The notes under the pieces were generated by a model. That model did not search any database. It had not been told where the DNA came from and was given only the letters and a program-made list of their open reading frames with translations. 64,000 nucleotides of DNA from Bacteroides pyogenes DSM 20611 = JCM 6294. GTDB lineage: Bacteria > Bacteroidota > Bacteroidia > Bacteroidales > Bacteroidaceae. Position numbers and translations under genes: made by a program. The stretch is from positions 1-64,000 of the forward strand of contig NZ_ATZH01000003.1 in assembly GCF_000428105.1 (NCBI RefSeq), written 5' to 3'. Below, piece after piece: positions 14,136-63,040 of this stretch; within the stretch, counting starts at the first letter, position 1, and each line of letters begins with the position of its first letter.

Positions 14136-14250
14136 CTATATATATTCACCATGGTGAGTATATATGCCCAGCGTGGTAGCCATATATATCCACCATACAT
14201 GACCATATATATTCACCATACATGACTATATATGCCCACCATGCTGCCTG
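14136..14250 (+). repeat. Five imperfect 22-24 base tandem repeats, AT-rich
   Basis: Five adjoining units start at 14136, 14159, 14181, 14204 and 14227. The best-conserved pair (14181-14203 and 14204-14226) differs at one position. The common core is TATATAT, one or two variable bases, CACCAT. The first unit also contains the palindrome CACCATGGTG. The rest of the 371-base gap from 14078 to 14448 holds no gene that I can support, only AT-rich sequence. The same core recurs at 15881-15920. Confidence 0.8.
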
Positions 14251-47693: not shown

Positions 47694-47892
47694 CGGAAAA
47701 TCTCCGGAATAAACGAATATCTGCTCTATTTATGATGTCCGGCAGGGACAGGCAGAGTAATCGGGAAGACGGAAATGGCGGATTGAGTATTTGCCGCGCA
47801 GAGGCATGCCGGCGTGAATGGGAAGTAAGGAGAAGAAGGGTAAGGAAATCGAACGTGCATACTTCCCGGACAAAGGAATAATGTTTCGCTTA

Positions 47893-47976
47893 GTTTCCCA
47901 CTATTGAAACAAAAGTTTCCCACCGGGGAAACTTTATTTTCCCACTTGGGAAACTTTTGTTTCCCCAATGGGAAAC
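47893..47976 (+). repeat. Four 18-base palindromes at an exact 22-base period
   Basis: Units at 47893-47910, 47915-47932, 47937-47954 and 47959-47976 are separated by four A/T bases each. Units 2 and 4 are GTTTCCCACCGGGGAAAC and GTTTCCCCAATGGGAAAC, with seven-base arms around four bases; unit 3 has TTTCCCA/TGGGAAA arms; unit 1 is degenerate on the right (GAAAC). A period of 22 bases is about two helical turns, so all sites face the same side. The 693-base gap 47602-48294 holds no gene that I can support. Confidence 0.85.
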
Positions 47977-47997
47977 TGCACCCCCCTCTATATACAT

Positions 47998-54285: not shown

Positions 54286-55254
54286 ATGAATGAAAAAAAA
54301 TCGTTAGTTTCTGTTATTATTCCGGTGTATAATGGAGAGAAGTATCTGGAGGAGTGCATTCAGAGTGTCATCAATCAAACTTATAAAAACATAGAAGTGA
54401 TAGTAGTGAACGATGGCAGCACTGACGGCAGCCTGTCCATTATATACCGGTATGCGGAGAAAGACGGCAGAATTAAATATGTGAACAAAGCGAATGAAGG
54501 GCTTGTAAAGGCTCGAAAAACAGGGCTTTCTTTAGCTGTTGGGAAATATATACAACATCTTGACAGCGATGATATACTCTGTGCCGATGCTATTGAGATT
54601 TTGTTAAACAAGGCAGAACAAACCGGAGCGGATGTTGTCTCTTTTCCTTTTGTTTTTCGTGATGGTGAAGAGAATGAATTTGCTGAATTCTTCGATCCGG
54701 ACGAAGCCCCGGGAGTTGAGTTTATCAGGAGGTATTTAAACTTTAAAGGTTATTGGATGGTTTGGTCGAAGTTTCATTTGCGTTCTTTGTATTCAAATCC
54801 GATAGAAACAATCGATATATCTTTTGGAGAAGATCTTGTGCTAACCACACAGCTTTTGTATTACTCCGAGAAAGTGGTGTCTGTGGATATCCCATTATTA
54901 TATTACAGGGTACTTCCTGCTTCAATGTCCCATTCTATGAGTGAGAGAAACTATCGGGATATGAATGCTTACTTGCGATGGATACTCGGCTTTATGGAAA
55001 GAGTCGGATGGAAAGAAGTGCTTAAAAAAGATTTGGGCTATTTTCACTTAAAGACTATTTTCCGGAGGCGACAATGGGGGAAAGTGTGGGATGTGTATAG
55101 AGATTTGAAATATGTAGTGGAGTATCTCCGGCTTTTCCCCGAATTTAGAGATAGTCTGTCCGGAAGAGAACGAAAGATTGTAAACTTATATGAGAAGTGC
55201 AGTTGTTTGGCTTATTTCAAAATGTGGTATTATAAAAGAAAAGGAAAAGTTTAA
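54286..55254 (+). CDS. Glycosyltransferase family 2
   Basis: A 322-residue GT-A enzyme without TM segments: VSVIIPVYNGEKYLEECIQSV, NDGSTDGS, and the DxD element HLDSDDILC near residue 92. The C-terminal half is variable, as in enzymes that extend surface glycans. It ends the glycan block, 113 bases before a regulator gene of the next locus. Confidence 0.92.
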   Translation: MNEKKSLVSVIIPVYNGEKYLEECIQSVINQTYKNIEVIVVNDGSTDGSLSIIYRYAEKDGRIKYVNKANEGLVKARKTGLSLAVGKYIQHLDSDDILCADAIEILLNKAEQTGADVVSFPFVFRDGEENEFAEFFDPDEAPGVEFIRRYLNFKGYWMVWSKFHLRSLYSNPIETIDISFGEDLVLTTQLLYYSEKVVSVDIPLLYYRVLPASMSHSMSERNYRDMNAYLRWILGFMERVGWKEVLKKDLGYFHLKTIFRRRQWGKVWDVYRDLKYVVEYLRLFPEFRDSLSGRERKIVNLYEKCSCLAYFKMWYYKRKGKV

Positions 55255-55367
55255 AGACTTCTTTGTTTCTTACTAATAACCGGCTTAATACTCAGTGGGG
55301 TATTGTTGCTGCTCTAAGTACAAAATATATGCAAATACGTTATCTGCATAATACGATATGGTTCGCT

Positions 55368-57136
55368 ATGAAAAAACAATTATATCTTTTCTTCATGATT
55401 TTATTGCTTTGCTCCGGACTTAAAGCGGGTAATCCGGAGAAAGCCCGGGTGTGGATGGAACAGGCTCAGAAATCACTGTTTACGAATCCGAAACAAGCTT
55501 CATACTATGCTACTCAGGCAATCGAATTGTTTCCCAAGAATAGTTCGGACAAGCTGCGGGTGGAGGCTATGATTATGTATAGTCAGGCAGAACAGTTGCT
55601 GGGTAACTTTGATTTAAGTATCAAAAACTTGTATGATGCTCAAACGTATATCAACCCTGCCGACAGGCAGTTGAATGCCCGTTTGTACGCTTTGATGGGG
55701 CGTGTTTACAGTAAATTGGGCGACCATAATAAGGCTATCGAGCTGAATGACAGGGCGACTTCCATCTATAAATCGCTGGCAGACTCATTGGCTATCGCTC
55801 AATGTTATAATGAGCGGGGCGTAACGCACTACCTGCTTAATGAATTTCAGGTAGCCGAACGGTTCTTCCGTCAGGCTTTGCTGATTAACCGCGCACAACG
55901 GAACCTGAAAGGGGTGGCGGCAAACCTGAACAATCTTTGTCTTTACGAGGGAGATACGCAGGAAAAGTTGGTCCTTATTCGTGAAGCTATTGTTATCAAC
56001 AAACATTTGGAGGCACAATGGTCGTTGGGGGAGAATTATAACAACATGGGGAAACAGTATTTCTTTGCCAAACAGTATCCTCAGGCATTGGAAGCATTGA
56101 GGCAAGCATACGGGTATGCCACCGGAATAGGGGCCCGAGAATTGATTTGCGATAATTATGAATATTCTTCGTGGGTGTATGCCGCCATCAGCGATTATGA
56201 GCGGGCGTATCGATGTCTCGAAAAGATGAGCGTGCTGGGCAGGGAACTGCAGAGCAACAACAAACTGCGTAATATCGAACAGGAAATATCTTATAAGAGA
56301 TATCAGGATCAGAAGCATGCCACGGAGATGAAAGAGAGAGGGTATGAAATAGAATTGCTGAAGCGTAACGTCTGGCTGTTGAGCAGTGTGCTTATACTCG
56401 GTGTAATAGCGGGCGTCTTTATATCGAACAGGAAATATCTTATAAGAGATATCAGGATCAGAAGCATGCCACGGAGATGAAAGAGAGAGGGTATGAAATA
56501 GAATTGCTGAAGCGTAACGTCTGGCTGTTGAGCAGTGTGCTTATACTCGGTGTAATAGCGGGCGTCTTTTTATATAAGTGGTATAAACGGAGGAAGGACT
56601 TGCAACTGGTAGAAGCGCGTTACCGGTTGGAACAGTCGGAACATGAACTGTCGGTTTTGAAAGTGCATCAGCAGGAAATGAAACTGCAAAATGTGCAAAA
56701 TGCGTTAGAAAGCAGCCGGCAGGAACTTACCAGCTTTGCCGTATTCTTGCAAAGCCGGAATGAGTTGCTGAATAAAATACGTGAAATGATCAAAGAAGGA
56801 TACAAGATGGATGAACAAAGTCTTGTACCCCATTTAAAGAAAATCAATGCTTTTATTTGTCAATACCAGAGTGGGGATAAAACAAATACGGCTTTGCTCC
56901 TGAATATAGATGAGAAGAGCAAAGAATTTGTTGACCGGCTTATGAAGCGCCATCCCGATCTGACGCAAGGCGAAAAGTATTTGGCTACTTTGTTAAGAGT
57001 AAATTTATCGACCAAAGAGATTGCTATGATTACGGGCAGCAATCCTAAAAGCGTTAATATGAATCGTTATCGTCTTCGTAAATCGCTCGGACTGTCGACC
57101 GAAGAAGATCTGACAGCATATCTTCAAGGGGTTTAG
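55368..57136 (+). pseudogene. TPR-TM-HTH regulator split by a 149-base tandem duplication
   Basis: Would encode a membrane-bound regulator with signal peptide (MKKQLYLFFMILLLCSGLKA), TPR repeats (about 25-300), a TM segment (NVWLLSSVLILGVIAGVFLY), a coiled coil, and a C-terminal LuxR/SpoIIE-like helix-turn-helix (STKEIAMITGSNPKSVNMNRYRLRK). Bases 56272-56420 and 56421-56569 are identical copies of 149 bases, not a multiple of three, so the frame is lost after the first TM and ends at 56480. Removing one copy restores one frame through 57136. An ATGA overlap at 56477-56480 gives a second frame with its own TM and the HTH. It precedes a SusC/SusD pair, so it probably controls that locus. Confidence 0.85.
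56272..56569 (+). repeat. Exact 149-base tandem duplication inside a regulator gene
   Basis: Two head-to-tail copies, 56272-56420 and 56421-56569, identical by eye, covering the region from before the coiled coil through the TM segment. The lack of any difference suggests a recent event or continuing loss and gain. Confidence 0.92.
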
Positions 57137-57348
57137 TTTCTCTTTCTTTTATCCCCGTTTTGTAGATATATATTTATTTTTAATATACTGATTTAATTCG
57201 TTTTACAATTTATTCTGTAGATTATAAAAGAGTATTTTCCTTCTTTTTGTAGATTCGGTATAGATGCTTTTCTTGATAGGAATTCATAAAATTCTTCCTT
57301 ATTTGCAGTGTGAAAAACATTTTTGTATCAACCTTAAAATAAACACAC

Positions 57349-60300
57349 ATGGGTAGAATTGCTAAGAATTGCCACATGAAAAGAGTATGGAAGCTTGCCT
57401 TACTCTTTGCGTTTCTGATTCCGCTAAGCTCTTTAGCGCAGAATATCCAACTGACAGGAACAGTGACTGATGTAAAAGGCGAAGGCATCATAGGTGCCAG
57501 CGTACTTGAAAAAGGAACAACGAATGGGGTGATTACCGACATGAACGGTAACTTCACGCTTAATGTCGCCCGAAATGCGAGAATCATAATCTCTTACGTC
57601 GGTTATGTTGCTCAGGAGTTAGCTCTTAATGGACAGCGAAGTGTTAAAGTTGTGCTGAAAGAGGACAACGAAATGCTCGATGAAATCGTTGTAATCGGTT
57701 ATGGTACGATGAAGAAAAGCGACATGACAGGCGCTATTTCATCGGTAGACGTAGAAGAACTTGCCAAACGTGCTACAACTAACCCGGCGGAAGCCCTGCA
57801 AGGGAAAATTGCAGGTGTCAATATCATGAAGTCGGGTGGTAACGCAGGCGCCGGTGTCCGTGTTAAAATACGCGGAGTGAAGACGTTCGGCGATAACGAA
57901 CCTCTGTATATTATCGACGGATTCCCGGGCAGTATTGAAAATGTGAACCCTCAGGATATTCAGGCAATGGAGGTCTTGAAGGATGGAGCCGCAGCTGCCA
58001 TTTACGGTTCGGTAGCGGCGAATGGCGTAATTATCGTGACAACCAAGAATGGCAAGAAAGGCGAAACCAAGTTCGATTTCAGCTCGTATGTAAGCATGAC
58101 CAAGGTTGCCAAAACACTCGATTTGCTGAATGCGGATGAATATAAGGAGGTGCACAAGCAGATGTACGAGAATTGGAACTCGCATGTGGAATTGCATAAA
58201 GCTCAATACGACCCCGAAGGTAAGGGAGCTTGGAAAAACCAATTGGTGAACATGAAGCCTTATATAACAAATAATACGGGTGTCGATACCGACTGGCAGG
58301 ATGCGATGTTGCGTACGGGAGTTTCTCAGAATTATATGTTTAGTGTAAGAGGCGGAGCCGAAAACATACAGTATTCCGTTTCTTACAATCGGGCGAACGA
58401 TAAGGGTATTTTCCTCGGCAACAACTTCCGTCAAGACAATGCCCGTCTGAAAGCCCACATCAAAAAGAGCATCTTTGACATAGATGCCAATATGGCTTTT
58501 AAGTATACCGACAGCAAGCAGCCGGAATATCAGCTGAAAGAGATGTACATGATCTCTCCGCTGGTTCCTATTTACAATGAAGAAGAAAAATATGGTTTCG
58601 GTCTGACTAATTTTGACGAATTGCCTAATAATCGTAACGTGATGGCGGATCATCACTACGAGAGATCTACCGATAAGCGCTATCATACGGGTGCTAATGT
58701 TGCTCTGACTACCAATTTCACTCCGTGGCTCAACTTTAAAACCAGCTATTCTTATCGGGGCGAGCACGGTCGGCAGACTTATCATACCCCTCCGTATATA
58801 GCCGATGAGAAATCGAAAAGAGATTACACGTATCATAGTGAAACAAGCTCTTATTGGGAAGAACATGTATGGGAAAACGTGCTCAGCTTCAATAAGGAAT
58901 TCGGTAAACATTCAATCAATGCAATTGCCGGAACATCGACGATGGCACGCAGGTATACCTGGAACTCGGTAGGTGTTGAGGGAAAAACAATTACTTATAA
59001 AGTGGAAGACGGAAAGCTTGTAGTGGGAGAGCAACCGGGCGGATTCCTCGATCCGGGCTTTTCCACTATCGGTGCGGGAGCCGGCGGTACTTACAATGGA
59101 GACGGAAGTAAATGGGATTACAGACGAGCTTCTTTCTTCGGTCGTTTGAACTATAATTATGATAACCGTTATTTGTTCCAAGCCACAGTGCGTTATGACG
59201 GATCTTCCAAGTTTGGTGCGGACAGCCGTTGGGGATGTTTCCCGTCCATTGCCTTGGGGTGGAGAATCAGTGAAGAAGAATTCTTCCCCAAAGATATGGC
59301 GCTAAATAACCTGAAGCTGCGGATGAGCTGGGGACGTCTGGGTAACGAGAATGCTTTGGGGTTGTATGATTTCCTTGCTTTGATCTCTACCTATAATAAT
59401 AAGTATCAGGGATATGTGAGAGGAAATGGAGATAATGCCTGGTCGGGAAGTATTGCGCGCGGACTTGAGAACCGTTCGTTGAAATGGGAAACAACGGATA
59501 CTAAAAACATTGGTATCGACTTCGGTTTCTTCGACAATAAACTGACCGGTGCGCTCAACTATTACTATAATCAGACGGAAGACCTTTTGATTACAAAGGC
59601 GCTGCCTCCTTCAGCCGGTCTTGCCAATCCTATTCTGAATGTAGGTAAGATACGCAATAAAGGTATCGAGTTTGAACTGAACTGGGCGGAGAATAAAGGA
59701 GATTTCGATTATAGCATCGGGTTTAACTTCGCTACGACTCACAATAAGGTGGTTGAGTTGGCGGATGCGGAACAGGTGCTTTATGGAGAAGGGTTGAAGT
59801 ACGGAACCGAACACTTCCCTACTCAGACACGTGTAGGCAAACCTATCGGCGCTTTCTATCTGTATAAAACTGCCGGTATCTTCCAGTCTAACGAGGAAGC
59901 ACGTCAATATGTGAATAGCGATAATGAGGAGTATCAACCATTTGCCGATGCCGGAGATATTCGCTTTGTAGACGTGAACGGCGACGGTACGATAGACGAT
60001 GGCGATAAAGTATATGCCGGTTCGGGCATTCCTAAGGTGGAAGCAAACTTGAATCTTTCTGTCGGCTATAAAGGTGTGGACTTCTCGTTAGTGCTGGGAA
60101 GCGCTTGGGGGCATAAAATCTACAACGGGAACAAATATTTCTACGAAGGAATGAACTCCGGTTCCAACTTCTTGAAATCTGCTTTGACGGCGTGGACACC
60201 GCTTAACTCAGGAACGAGCGTTCCCCGTGCTATTTATAATGATCCAAACGGGAATATGAAGGAATCAGACCGCTTCCTGGAGAAAGGCGACTTTATCCGT

Positions 60301-60525
60301 CTTCGTCAGCTTCAGTTGGGTTATACGCTGCCGAAATCGTTGATGCAGAAAGTTTCTGTAGAAAAGCTGCGTTTCTATGTGAGCGGTGAGAATCTCTTTA
60401 CGATTACCGGATACGATGGTATTGATCCCGAGTTTTCCCGCGGCAGTGTGTTGAATGCCGGTATCGATAAGCTCATCTATCCGTTTACACGCTCATTTAC
60501 AGTGGGAGCTCAACTTACATTCTAA
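57349..60525 (+). CDS. SusC/RagA-family TonB-dependent outer membrane transporter
   Basis: A 1058-residue outer membrane transporter for glycans. It has a signal peptide (ending SSLA-QNI), a carboxypeptidase-regulatory-like domain (TGTVTDVKGEGIIGASV, about 32-110), the SusC motif EIVVIGYGTMKKSDMTGA, a plug with IRGVKTFGDNEPLYIIDGFPG, and a 22-strand barrel ending SFTVGAQLTF. The ATG at 57349 is kept, but the ATG at 57376 (MKRVWKLALLF) is an equally good signal-peptide start. Paired with SusD 20 bases downstream. Confidence 0.96.
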   Translation: MGRIAKNCHMKRVWKLALLFAFLIPLSSLAQNIQLTGTVTDVKGEGIIGASVLEKGTTNGVITDMNGNFTLNVARNARIIISYVGYVAQELALNGQRSVKVVLKEDNEMLDEIVVIGYGTMKKSDMTGAISSVDVEELAKRATTNPAEALQGKIAGVNIMKSGGNAGAGVRVKIRGVKTFGDNEPLYIIDGFPGSIENVNPQDIQAMEVLKDGAAAAIYGSVAANGVIIVTTKNGKKGETKFDFSSYVSMTKVAKTLDLLNADEYKEVHKQMYENWNSHVELHKAQYDPEGKGAWKNQLVNMKPYITNNTGVDTDWQDAMLRTGVSQNYMFSVRGGAENIQYSVSYNRANDKGIFLGNNFRQDNARLKAHIKKSIFDIDANMAFKYTDSKQPEYQLKEMYMISPLVPIYNEEEKYGFGLTNFDELPNNRNVMADHHYERSTDKRYHTGANVALTTNFTPWLNFKTSYSYRGEHGRQTYHTPPYIADEKSKRDYTYHSETSSYWEEHVWENVLSFNKEFGKHSINAIAGTSTMARRYTWNSVGVEGKTITYKVEDGKLVVGEQPGGFLDPGFSTIGAGAGGTYNGDGSKWDYRRASFFGRLNYNYDNRYLFQATVRYDGSSKFGADSRWGCFPSIALGWRISEEEFFPKDMALNNLKLRMSWGRLGNENALGLYDFLALISTYNNKYQGYVRGNGDNAWSGSIARGLENRSLKWETTDTKNIGIDFGFFDNKLTGALNYYYNQTEDLLITKALPPSAGLANPILNVGKIRNKGIEFELNWAENKGDFDYSIGFNFATTHNKVVELADAEQVLYGEGLKYGTEHFPTQTRVGKPIGAFYLYKTAGIFQSNEEARQYVNSDNEEYQPFADAGDIRFVDVNGDGTIDDGDKVYAGSGIPKVEANLNLSVGYKGVDFSLVLGSAWGHKIYNGNKYFYEGMNSGSNFLKSALTAWTPLNSGTSVPRAIYNDPNGNMKESDRFLEKGDFIRLRQLQLGYTLPKSLMQKVSVEKLRFYVSGENLFTITGYDGIDPEFSRGSVLNAGIDKLIYPFTRSFTVGAQLTF

Positions 60526-60545: not shown

Positions 60546-62057
60546 ATGAAAAAACTGACATATATAGCCGGTATTTGTCTTGCATCGCTTTTTGCAAGCT
60601 CATGCGATGACTTTCTGACTGTGGATTCGCCCGACCAATTGACTTCCGGCAACTTCTGGCGTAATGAGAGTGACGCGCAAGCCGGCATTTCCGCTGCGTA
60701 TTCTCAATTGGAATATTACATTGATACATGGGAGTTTGCCGAAGTGAAATGGCCGGTGGAAGCCTATCGTGAGGATATCATCAATATGGGAAATGATGCC
60801 CGCAACTATCCCAACTGGCTCGAACTGTATAACTTTACTTATACAAATGGTAACTCGCAGTTCAATAACTATTGGTGGAACAATTATAAGGGGATCAGCT
60901 TTGCCAATCAGGTGATAGAAAAGGTGGCTCAGATTCCTGCCGAGAAAATAAATGAGGCTGTACGCACGCAAATAATTAATGAAGGACACTTTCTGCGGGC
61001 TTATTATCATTTGAAGTTGTTGCTCAACTGGAAAGAAATTATCATACGCGACAAGTATATCACCGGCCAGGCTGAGATGAGTAAGCCTCTATCATCCCGT
61101 CCCGATGCTTGGGAGTTTATTATTGAAGACTTGAAGAAAGCGGCAGCTTTGCCGGCAACTTATGATACGGACAATACGGGAAGAGCTACATGCGGAGCAG
61201 CCTATGCTTATCTGGGTTTTGCTTATTTGACCCGCGCTTACGAAGAACCGGAGAAAAAAGAGGCTTTTCTGAAGGAAGCTCTTGAAGCATTAAATAAGGT
61301 AACGGGCTATGAATTGGTGAAGAAGTTCTCGAGCATGTTCGATGCCAGTAATAAGAATAGCAAGGAGTCTGTATTTGAATTGCAGACCTCTATGAGCACT
61401 GCTAACGGAGCCAATTACCGCACTCAGTTTCATCGTTGGATAGGAGTGTCGGAATTGAAGGGATGGGACGAGATTCTTCCCAGCAACATACTGGTGGATG
61501 CTTTTATGAAAGAAGGAAAAATCGCTACTACCGGACGTTATGACTCGCGTTTGTATGAAACGCTGTTCTTCAAATGCGATTATTATAACGATGGTAACGG
61601 ACGGGTTTATGGAAAGAACTATGACGACTGGTTTGCTACCCCACGTCCTGCTTTTCGCAAATTCATGCCTGCCGATCTCGAAGGGTTGTCCAACAACTAC
61701 TGCGCTATCAACATTCCTTTGATGCGTTACGCCAATGTGTTGCTGATGAAAGCGGAAGCGCTGAACGAACAGGGACATCCGGAACAGGCTATTCCTCTGA
61801 TCAATCAGGTCAGAAGTGTGCATGGCGATATGCCTGCCATGAAAGGGAAGACACAGAATGAAGTACGTGCCCAGATAGAACACGAACGTATGATTGAGTT
61901 TCCGTTGGAAAACTGGCGTTGGTACGATTTGCGTCGTTGGGGTAAACTGGCTTCTACCTTGGCTGCTGCCGGACGTGCCGGCTTTACTGAAGAAAAGAAT
62001 GCTTTCTATCCTGTTCCGCTGACAGAAATAAATGCCAATAACCAAATTCAGAAATAA
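60546..62057 (+). CDS. SusD/RagB-family surface glycan-binding lipoprotein
   Basis: A 503-residue lipoprotein (lipobox LFASSC, C20) that lids the SusC barrel and captures glycan. The N-terminal CDDFLTVDSPDQLTSGNFW and TPR-like helical core are family features, and the C-terminus has ALNEQGHPEQAIPLINQVRS and RMIEFPLENWRWYDLRRWGKL, the SusD/RagB signature. The target glycan cannot be read, but a GH2 enzyme downstream suggests beta-linked galactose or a related sugar. Confidence 0.96.
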   Translation: MKKLTYIAGICLASLFASSCDDFLTVDSPDQLTSGNFWRNESDAQAGISAAYSQLEYYIDTWEFAEVKWPVEAYREDIINMGNDARNYPNWLELYNFTYTNGNSQFNNYWWNNYKGISFANQVIEKVAQIPAEKINEAVRTQIINEGHFLRAYYHLKLLLNWKEIIIRDKYITGQAEMSKPLSSRPDAWEFIIEDLKKAAALPATYDTDNTGRATCGAAYAYLGFAYLTRAYEEPEKKEAFLKEALEALNKVTGYELVKKFSSMFDASNKNSKESVFELQTSMSTANGANYRTQFHRWIGVSELKGWDEILPSNILVDAFMKEGKIATTGRYDSRLYETLFFKCDYYNDGNGRVYGKNYDDWFATPRPAFRKFMPADLEGLSNNYCAINIPLMRYANVLLMKAEALNEQGHPEQAIPLINQVRSVHGDMPAMKGKTQNEVRAQIEHERMIEFPLENWRWYDLRRWGKLASTLAAAGRAGFTEEKNAFYPVPLTEINANNQIQK

Positions 62058-62162: not shown

Positions 62163-62441
62163 ATGTTTACGATTATCGGACTTATGCTGACAGGTATGTT
62201 GGCGGGATATTTGTTGCGGAAGCGCAATCTGGCACGTATCCAATCGGTTATAACCGGGCTTATCTGGCTATTGCTTTTTTTTCTCGGTGTAGAAGTGGGA
62301 AGCAATGAGGCGATTATCCGGGGCTTGCATACCATCGGGCTGGAGGCTGTGGTCTTGACTTTGGGAGGAACGCTGGGCAGTGTGGTTGCTGCTTGGGCTT
62401 TGTGGAAGACGTTGGGCGGTAAAAAGGAGGAGAAGGCATGA
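62163..62441 (+). CDS. LysO-like exporter, N-terminal part
   Basis: A 92-residue inner membrane protein with three TM segments (FTIIGLMLTGMLAGYLLRKR, SVITGLIWLLLFFLGVEVG and a third at 58-80). It matches the N-terminal third of LysO (DUF340), the lysine exporter that is one chain of about 300 residues in E. coli. Its TGA overlaps the ATG of the next gene (ATGA), so the two halves are translated together and likely form one transporter. Confidence 0.82.
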   Translation: MFTIIGLMLTGMLAGYLLRKRNLARIQSVITGLIWLLLFFLGVEVGSNEAIIRGLHTIGLEAVVLTLGGTLGSVVAAWALWKTLGGKKEEKA

Positions 62442-63040
62442 AAGGAAGTCTGATTATTGTCGCCTTTTTTGTGTTAGGAACGGTTGTCGGTTTAACTGAT
62501 CTGTTTCCTTTTGATTTGGCAGATACGGACATCAGTTATTACGCGCTTTGCGCGCTCATGTTTTGTGTAGGGCTGGGCGTGGGGAATGACCCGCAAACAT
62601 TGAAGAACTTCCGTTCTTTGAATCCCCGGCTCGTGTTTCTTCCCGTGATGACCATAGTGGGTACATTGGCAGGCTCAGCCGTTGTAAGTATGCTGTTGTC
62701 TCATCGTTCCGTAGCCGATTGTCTGGCCGTCGGGTCGGGGTTCGGGTATTACTCGCTTTCAAGTATCTTCATTACAGAATCCAAAGGTCCCGAATTGGGA
62801 ACGATAGCATTGTTGGCTAATATTTGCAGGGAAATACTGACATTGCTGGCAGCTCCTCTATTGGTGCGTTGGTTCGGCAATCTGGCTCCTATCTCTGCCG
62901 GAGGGGCTACGACGATGGACACTACGCTACCTATCATTACCCGGACAGCCGGACAGGAATACGTCGTTTTGTCTATCTTTCACGGCTTTCTGGTCGATTT
63001 CAGCGTTCCTTTTTTAGTCACCCTGTTTTGTTCGATATAA
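62438..63040 (+). CDS. LysO-like exporter, C-terminal part
   Basis: A 200-residue protein with about five to six TM segments matching the larger C-terminal part of LysO: ALCALMFCVGLGVGNDP, VGSGFGYYSLSSIFITESKGPELGTIALLANICREI and GGATTMDTTLPIITRTAG. The GSGFGYYS and TMDTTLP loops are the conserved family segments. It exports lysine or a related cationic compound by homology. The pair appears to be a natural split, not a mutation, because both starts and the overlap are clean. Confidence 0.85.
   Translation: MKGSLIIVAFFVLGTVVGLTDLFPFDLADTDISYYALCALMFCVGLGVGNDPQTLKNFRSLNPRLVFLPVMTIVGTLAGSAVVSMLLSHRSVADCLAVGSGFGYYSLSSIFITESKGPELGTIALLANICREILTLLAAPLLVRWFGNLAPISAGGATTMDTTLPIITRTAGQEYVVLSIFHGFLVDFSVPFLVTLFCSI

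Follow-up and report, generated by a model that had tools for sequence, protein, structure and literature searches.

Reversible intragenic tandem duplications have been described in the capsule genes of Streptococcus pneumoniae, in the type 3 capsule locus, cap8E/wchA and tts (Waite et al. 2001, 2003, as cited in PMC4022640 and PMC13410964). In the lrp gene of Xenorhabdus nematophila, three tandem duplications of 26-116 bp caused loss of function and no genetic reversion was seen (PMC6786866). Phase variation of SusC/SusD genes in Bacteroides fragilis follows a different route and is driven by an invertase (Nakayama-Imaohji et al. 2009, cited in PMC11868660).

Here we describe a 149-bp tandem duplication in a regulator gene beside a SusC/SusD pair, located in a window of 64,000 nucleotides, the whole stretch of DNA that was analysed, from Bacteroides pyogenes DSM 20611. 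As in the pneumococcal capsule genes, a head-to-tail duplication lies inside a coding gene and breaks it, and the break is in principle reversible by the loss of one copy. However, the pneumococcal duplications and their phase variation were demonstrated experimentally, whereas the present case concerns one genome, a regulator beside a SusC/SusD locus and sequence data only. The similarity to lrp lies in a duplication of comparable size in a regulator gene, with function putatively lost by ordinary mutation, although the lrp duplications were found in variants of known phenotype. Variation at the window locus would, like the inversions in B. fragilis, affect SusC/SusD output, but nothing resembling site-specific DNA inversion was found there. 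At most, the window duplication would work like the pneumococcal intragenic duplications, and it appears to be one more case of an already known type of mutation.

Our preferred interpretation, to which we assign a probability of about 0.62, is that of a recent, strain-private loss-of-function tandem duplication in a membrane-bound regulator with TPR, TM and LuxR-type HTH parts (TPR-TM-LuxR-HTH). As an unexceptional class of mutation, tandem duplications within genes can silence the regulator of a nutrient locus in one strain and later be undone. They also call for caution, since short-read draft assemblies may create or hide them.

Geometry of the duplication and reading frames

The two copies adjoin exactly and are identical at 149/149 bases (Table 1), for which the chance expectation in the 64,000-nt window is about 1e-81. 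As 149 bases do not make up a whole number of codons, the frame that opens at 55368 stops at 56480 after 370 residues, and its TGA overlaps with the ATG of a second frame at 56477 as ATGA. Counted from the first base of each copy, the reading frame is identical in both, and a locus with one copy therefore forms one continuous frame. Besides the duplication, neither regulator frame contained any other lesion. The predicted split products are thus a 370-aa protein with TPR and TM parts versus a 219-aa protein with TM and LuxR-type HTH parts, as compared to 539 residues for the intact type. At the joint, GCGTCTTT is followed by ATATCG and there is no microhomology; if the adjacent T5 run also became T3, the joint could pass through a shared ATAT.

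A preliminary description of this DNA had reported the adjoining copies, the shifted frame and the ATGA that opens a second frame; all of its coordinates were right and both ORFs were recovered. It had also taken the identity of the copies as a sign of a recent or active event; a recent origin agrees with the 0/149 differences between them, which bound the divergence between the copies at about 2% (95%).

Table 1. Coordinates of the duplication, the regulator frames, the adjacent genes and the divergent tract in the window.
Feature	Position	Strand	Basis or remark
Copy 1 of the 149-bp tandem duplication	56272..56420	+	
Copy 2, identical to copy 1; exact 149-nt alignment gap in B. pyogenes DSM 19673	56421..56569	+	
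ORF1, regulator cut short at 370 aa, with signal peptide, TPR domain, TM helix and 18-19 out-of-frame residues	55368..56480	+	Ortholog alignment; AlphaFold model of intact ortholog
ORF2, predicted frame of 219 aa: internal ATG, TM helix, long helix and C-terminal LuxR/NarL-type HTH	56477..57136	+	
SusC-family TonB-dependent receptor, putatively under control of the regulator	57349..60525	+	Conserved beside regulator
SusD-family lipoprotein	60546..62057	+	
Tract divergent from DSM 19673, probably a swapped allele, holding the duplication	55600..57330	.	Mostly 8-18% difference per 100 bases

Domain structure of the regulator

The intact ortholog in B. pyogenes DSM 19673 (locus L012) is one uninterrupted protein, with 539 residues when counted from the corresponding start. 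Searches against Pfam identified only TPR repeats, in the N-terminal part. The AlphaFold prediction (22 orthologs, mean pLDDT 82.6) consisted of a TPR superhelix at residues 23-294, a continuous helix of about 95 residues (297-391) that carries the hydrophobic membrane segment, and a helical domain at the C-terminus. The C-terminal part showed a weak sequence match to LuxR/GerE (10/20 members, best E 3e-4), and in Foldseek it resembled the NarL-type DNA-binding domains of DosR, VraR and LiaR (about 2 A across some 60 residues), with weak E-values. The regulator is most likely a one-component membrane protein with a periplasmic TPR sensor, a TM helix and a cytoplasmic LuxR-type HTH. The three parts are those named in the preliminary description, and the type of the HTH can be specified as LuxR/NarL. 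In the orthologs, a signal peptide, the periplasmic TPR domain, one TM helix and the C-terminal HTH are combined in one chain, which in the window genome is split by the duplication. A protein search for paralogs of the regulator in the same genome gave none.

The duplicated segment is part of the uninterrupted predicted helix that links the TPR domain, via the membrane, to the DNA-binding part. Over residues 298-362, which correspond to the duplicated region, the 22 aligned orthologs contained zero insertions or deletions, suggesting that the protein, where it is needed, probably does not tolerate a lengthening or breaking of the helix in this region.

One-copy state in related genomes

B. 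pyogenes DSM 19673 is mostly 95-97% identical to the window genome over the stretch compared. The alignment of the two contained a single insertion in the gene, of exactly 149 bases on the window side, and the TPR, TM and HTH parts are seen directly as one frame in DSM 19673, as had been anticipated for the loss of one copy. Sampling a genome collection with one genome per species, we obtained 26 orthologous loci, 23 of which have an intact single frame (DSM 19673 and 22 others). The remaining three, in a MAG (L026) and two drafts (L036 and L037), have no tandem copies and owe their broken frames to small frameshifts, possibly sequencing errors, and recurrent breakage of the gene by duplication was rejected on these grounds. 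In the Bacteroidia MAG, the frameshift (L026:6846-6974) is situated near an A-rich run in the same juxtamembrane helix.

Neither the same nor any other tandem duplication in the gene was present in the 26 ortholog loci or in 29 further whole-genome loci, which are mostly orthologs; runs in one of the latter (L091) are probably N stretches that were unmasked in the scan. Among 51 family genomes, the joint sequence occurred only in that of the window, and an exact search of viral contigs for the joint gave no match. Since the loci of the relatives lack a second copy and the joint is unique to the window's genome, the one-copy form is, as judged from these comparisons, the intact ancestral form.

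Divergence and selection

To estimate the selective constraints on the gene, we calculated dN/dS ratios against DSM 19673, which were 0.07 for the TPR part, 0.11 for the repeat part and 0.02 for the HTH part. Changes polarised with three outgroups were distributed fairly evenly over the two B. pyogenes-group branches (21 vs 16, and 8 vs 4). The dN/dS values of 0.02-0.11 and the balanced changes on the branches indicate that the gene was kept functional by purifying selection until recently, and the low ratios in all three parts that the break is young. An old, decayed pseudogene was ruled out by the same two observations, together with the lack of further lesions; if the gene is inactive, it was inactivated only very recently.

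The duplication sits inside a tract of about 55600-57330 that diverges from DSM 19673 (Table 1), while the flanks at 54700-55600 and 57900-58600 differ by 0-1%. Correspondingly, dS was 0.33-0.45 in the regulator gene versus 0.06-0.11 in its neighbours. These differences are most simply explained if the two strains carry different regulator alleles through homologous recombination, the tract probably being a swapped allele.

Origin of the duplication and alternative explanations

Under either version of the joint, the 149-bp duplication most likely arose as an ordinary product of replication slippage or illegitimate joining. It interrupts the frame within the helix through which the periplasmic TPR sensor would signal to the cytoplasmic HTH. 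ORF1 would retain the sensor and membrane segment without the HTH, and ORF2, if translated, the membrane segment and HTH without the sensor. Regulation of the adjacent SusC/SusD pair would then likely be lost or severely reduced, although ORF2, with its TM and HTH, could keep some activity, such that function was altered and not lost. As with any perfect tandem repeat, slippage or recombination may remove one copy and so rejoin the frame, at low frequency.

The second copy could also be an assembly artefact, generated if two contig ends or read paths that overlap by 149 bases were joined unmerged, in which case it would be absent in the cell and the gene intact. The size of the unit is near a common read length (150), the joint is without microhomology on either side and falls in a T-run, a typical spot for assembly trouble, and the draft assembly comprises 72 contigs and has scaffold gaps filled with N; the intact gene is, moreover, otherwise under strong purifying selection. 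On the other hand, the 754 kb sampled (22% of the genome) contained no further exact tandem duplication whose period exceeds 44 bp, and the longest other near-tandem copies that we inspected there were tRNA genes, low-complexity or coding-type repeats, so that a systematic overlap error of the assembler was not seen in this sample. Nor is there an N run at the joint, the assembly is of high quality by completeness and contamination, and real intragenic tandem duplications of similar size are documented (PMC6786866; pneumococcal work cited in PMC4022640). An artefact is thus unlikely in our judgement, but it has an appreciable chance of being correct. That the split instead yields a TPR sensor in the membrane and an HTH protein anchored there, both functional and the latter made by termination-reinitiation at the ATGA, with regulation becoming independent of the signal, we regard as doubtful. 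The overlap of stop and start would suit such coupling, ORF2 retains a TM segment with positive-inside charges as well as a complete HTH, and a GGAG is located just upstream of its ATG. However, the GGAG directly adjoins the ATG, which leaves too little space for it to be used in the ordinary way, and it lies, like the ATGA overlap, in copied sequence, where both arise automatically and need no selection. The methionine at this place varies among the orthologs without being conserved as a start codon. The split itself is also very young. The separate sensor and free-running HTH protein suggested in the preliminary description are hence possible on paper, but the split into functional parts finds no support. 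An RNA element at the overlap of the ORFs was likewise considered and rejected, as a search of Rfam at this site gave no match and the folding there was not unusual.

It was also proposed that the duplication could be a reversible on/off switch for the SusC/SusD locus. Under this hypothesis, loss and regain of one copy would toggle the regulator as a contingency switch, without a recombinase, and the use of the locus would be subject to bet-hedging, with the window representing one state. Perfect tandem repeats can by their nature revert to a single copy, which here would restore the frame, and the locus combines exact, frame-breaking tandem copies with an intact one-copy frame, as in duplication-type phase variation. 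In the pneumococcus, tandem duplications that arise spontaneously within genes cause a reversible loss of the capsule (work cited in PMC4022640 and PMC13410964), and SusC/SusD families of Bacteroides are phase-variable, but by another route, DNA inversion (cited in PMC11868660). At the window locus, no flanking inverted repeats and no recombinase site were found, arguing against site-specific recombination or an invertible element, and the inverted pairs that we detected at the repeat represent a local near-palindrome within the unit. Recurrent duplications in independent strains were not observed (26 + 29 loci; joint in 1/51 family genomes), the one-copy allele lacks repeats or microhomology that would make the ON-to-OFF step recurrent there, and the duplicated segment is conserved and free of indels. 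Given that the duplication was seen once, did not recur in these loci and has no sequence feature by which the forward step would be repeated, a switch is very unlikely, and the claim was not upheld. The reversibility expected here is that of perfect tandem repeats in general, which are unstable by their geometry, and it does not point to a dedicated system. A clone in which cells with one copy and cells with two were present together would nevertheless represent a recombinase-free route to variation in glycan-uptake loci.

Neighbouring genes and other repeats

The regulator gene is located directly upstream of the SusC/SusD pair, for which the preliminary description was again correct, and is followed after the pair by a LysO gene. 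The gene order is conserved, with SusC directly downstream of the regulator in 23 of the 26 ortholog loci and somewhat farther downstream, at up to about 4 kb, in two others. This position suggests that the regulator controls the adjacent pair. The LysO-family lysine exporter at 62163-63040 consists of two overlapping frames (62163-62441 and 62438-63040), and the LysO gene is kept downstream of the SusC/SusD pair in many relatives.

Elsewhere, at about C3:70740-71544 (L099, G000 C3), there is a scaffold gap filled with 685 N bases and with 60 identical bases on both flanks. This gap is near an array with a period of 813 bases and is probably an unresolved assembly repeat. Imperfect tandem arrays of 22-23-base units that are rich in short palindromes, such as TTTCCCAC...GGGAAAC, recur at several places in the genome and were found at 47890-47977 and 14138-14242 as well as at G000 C1:104143-104270.
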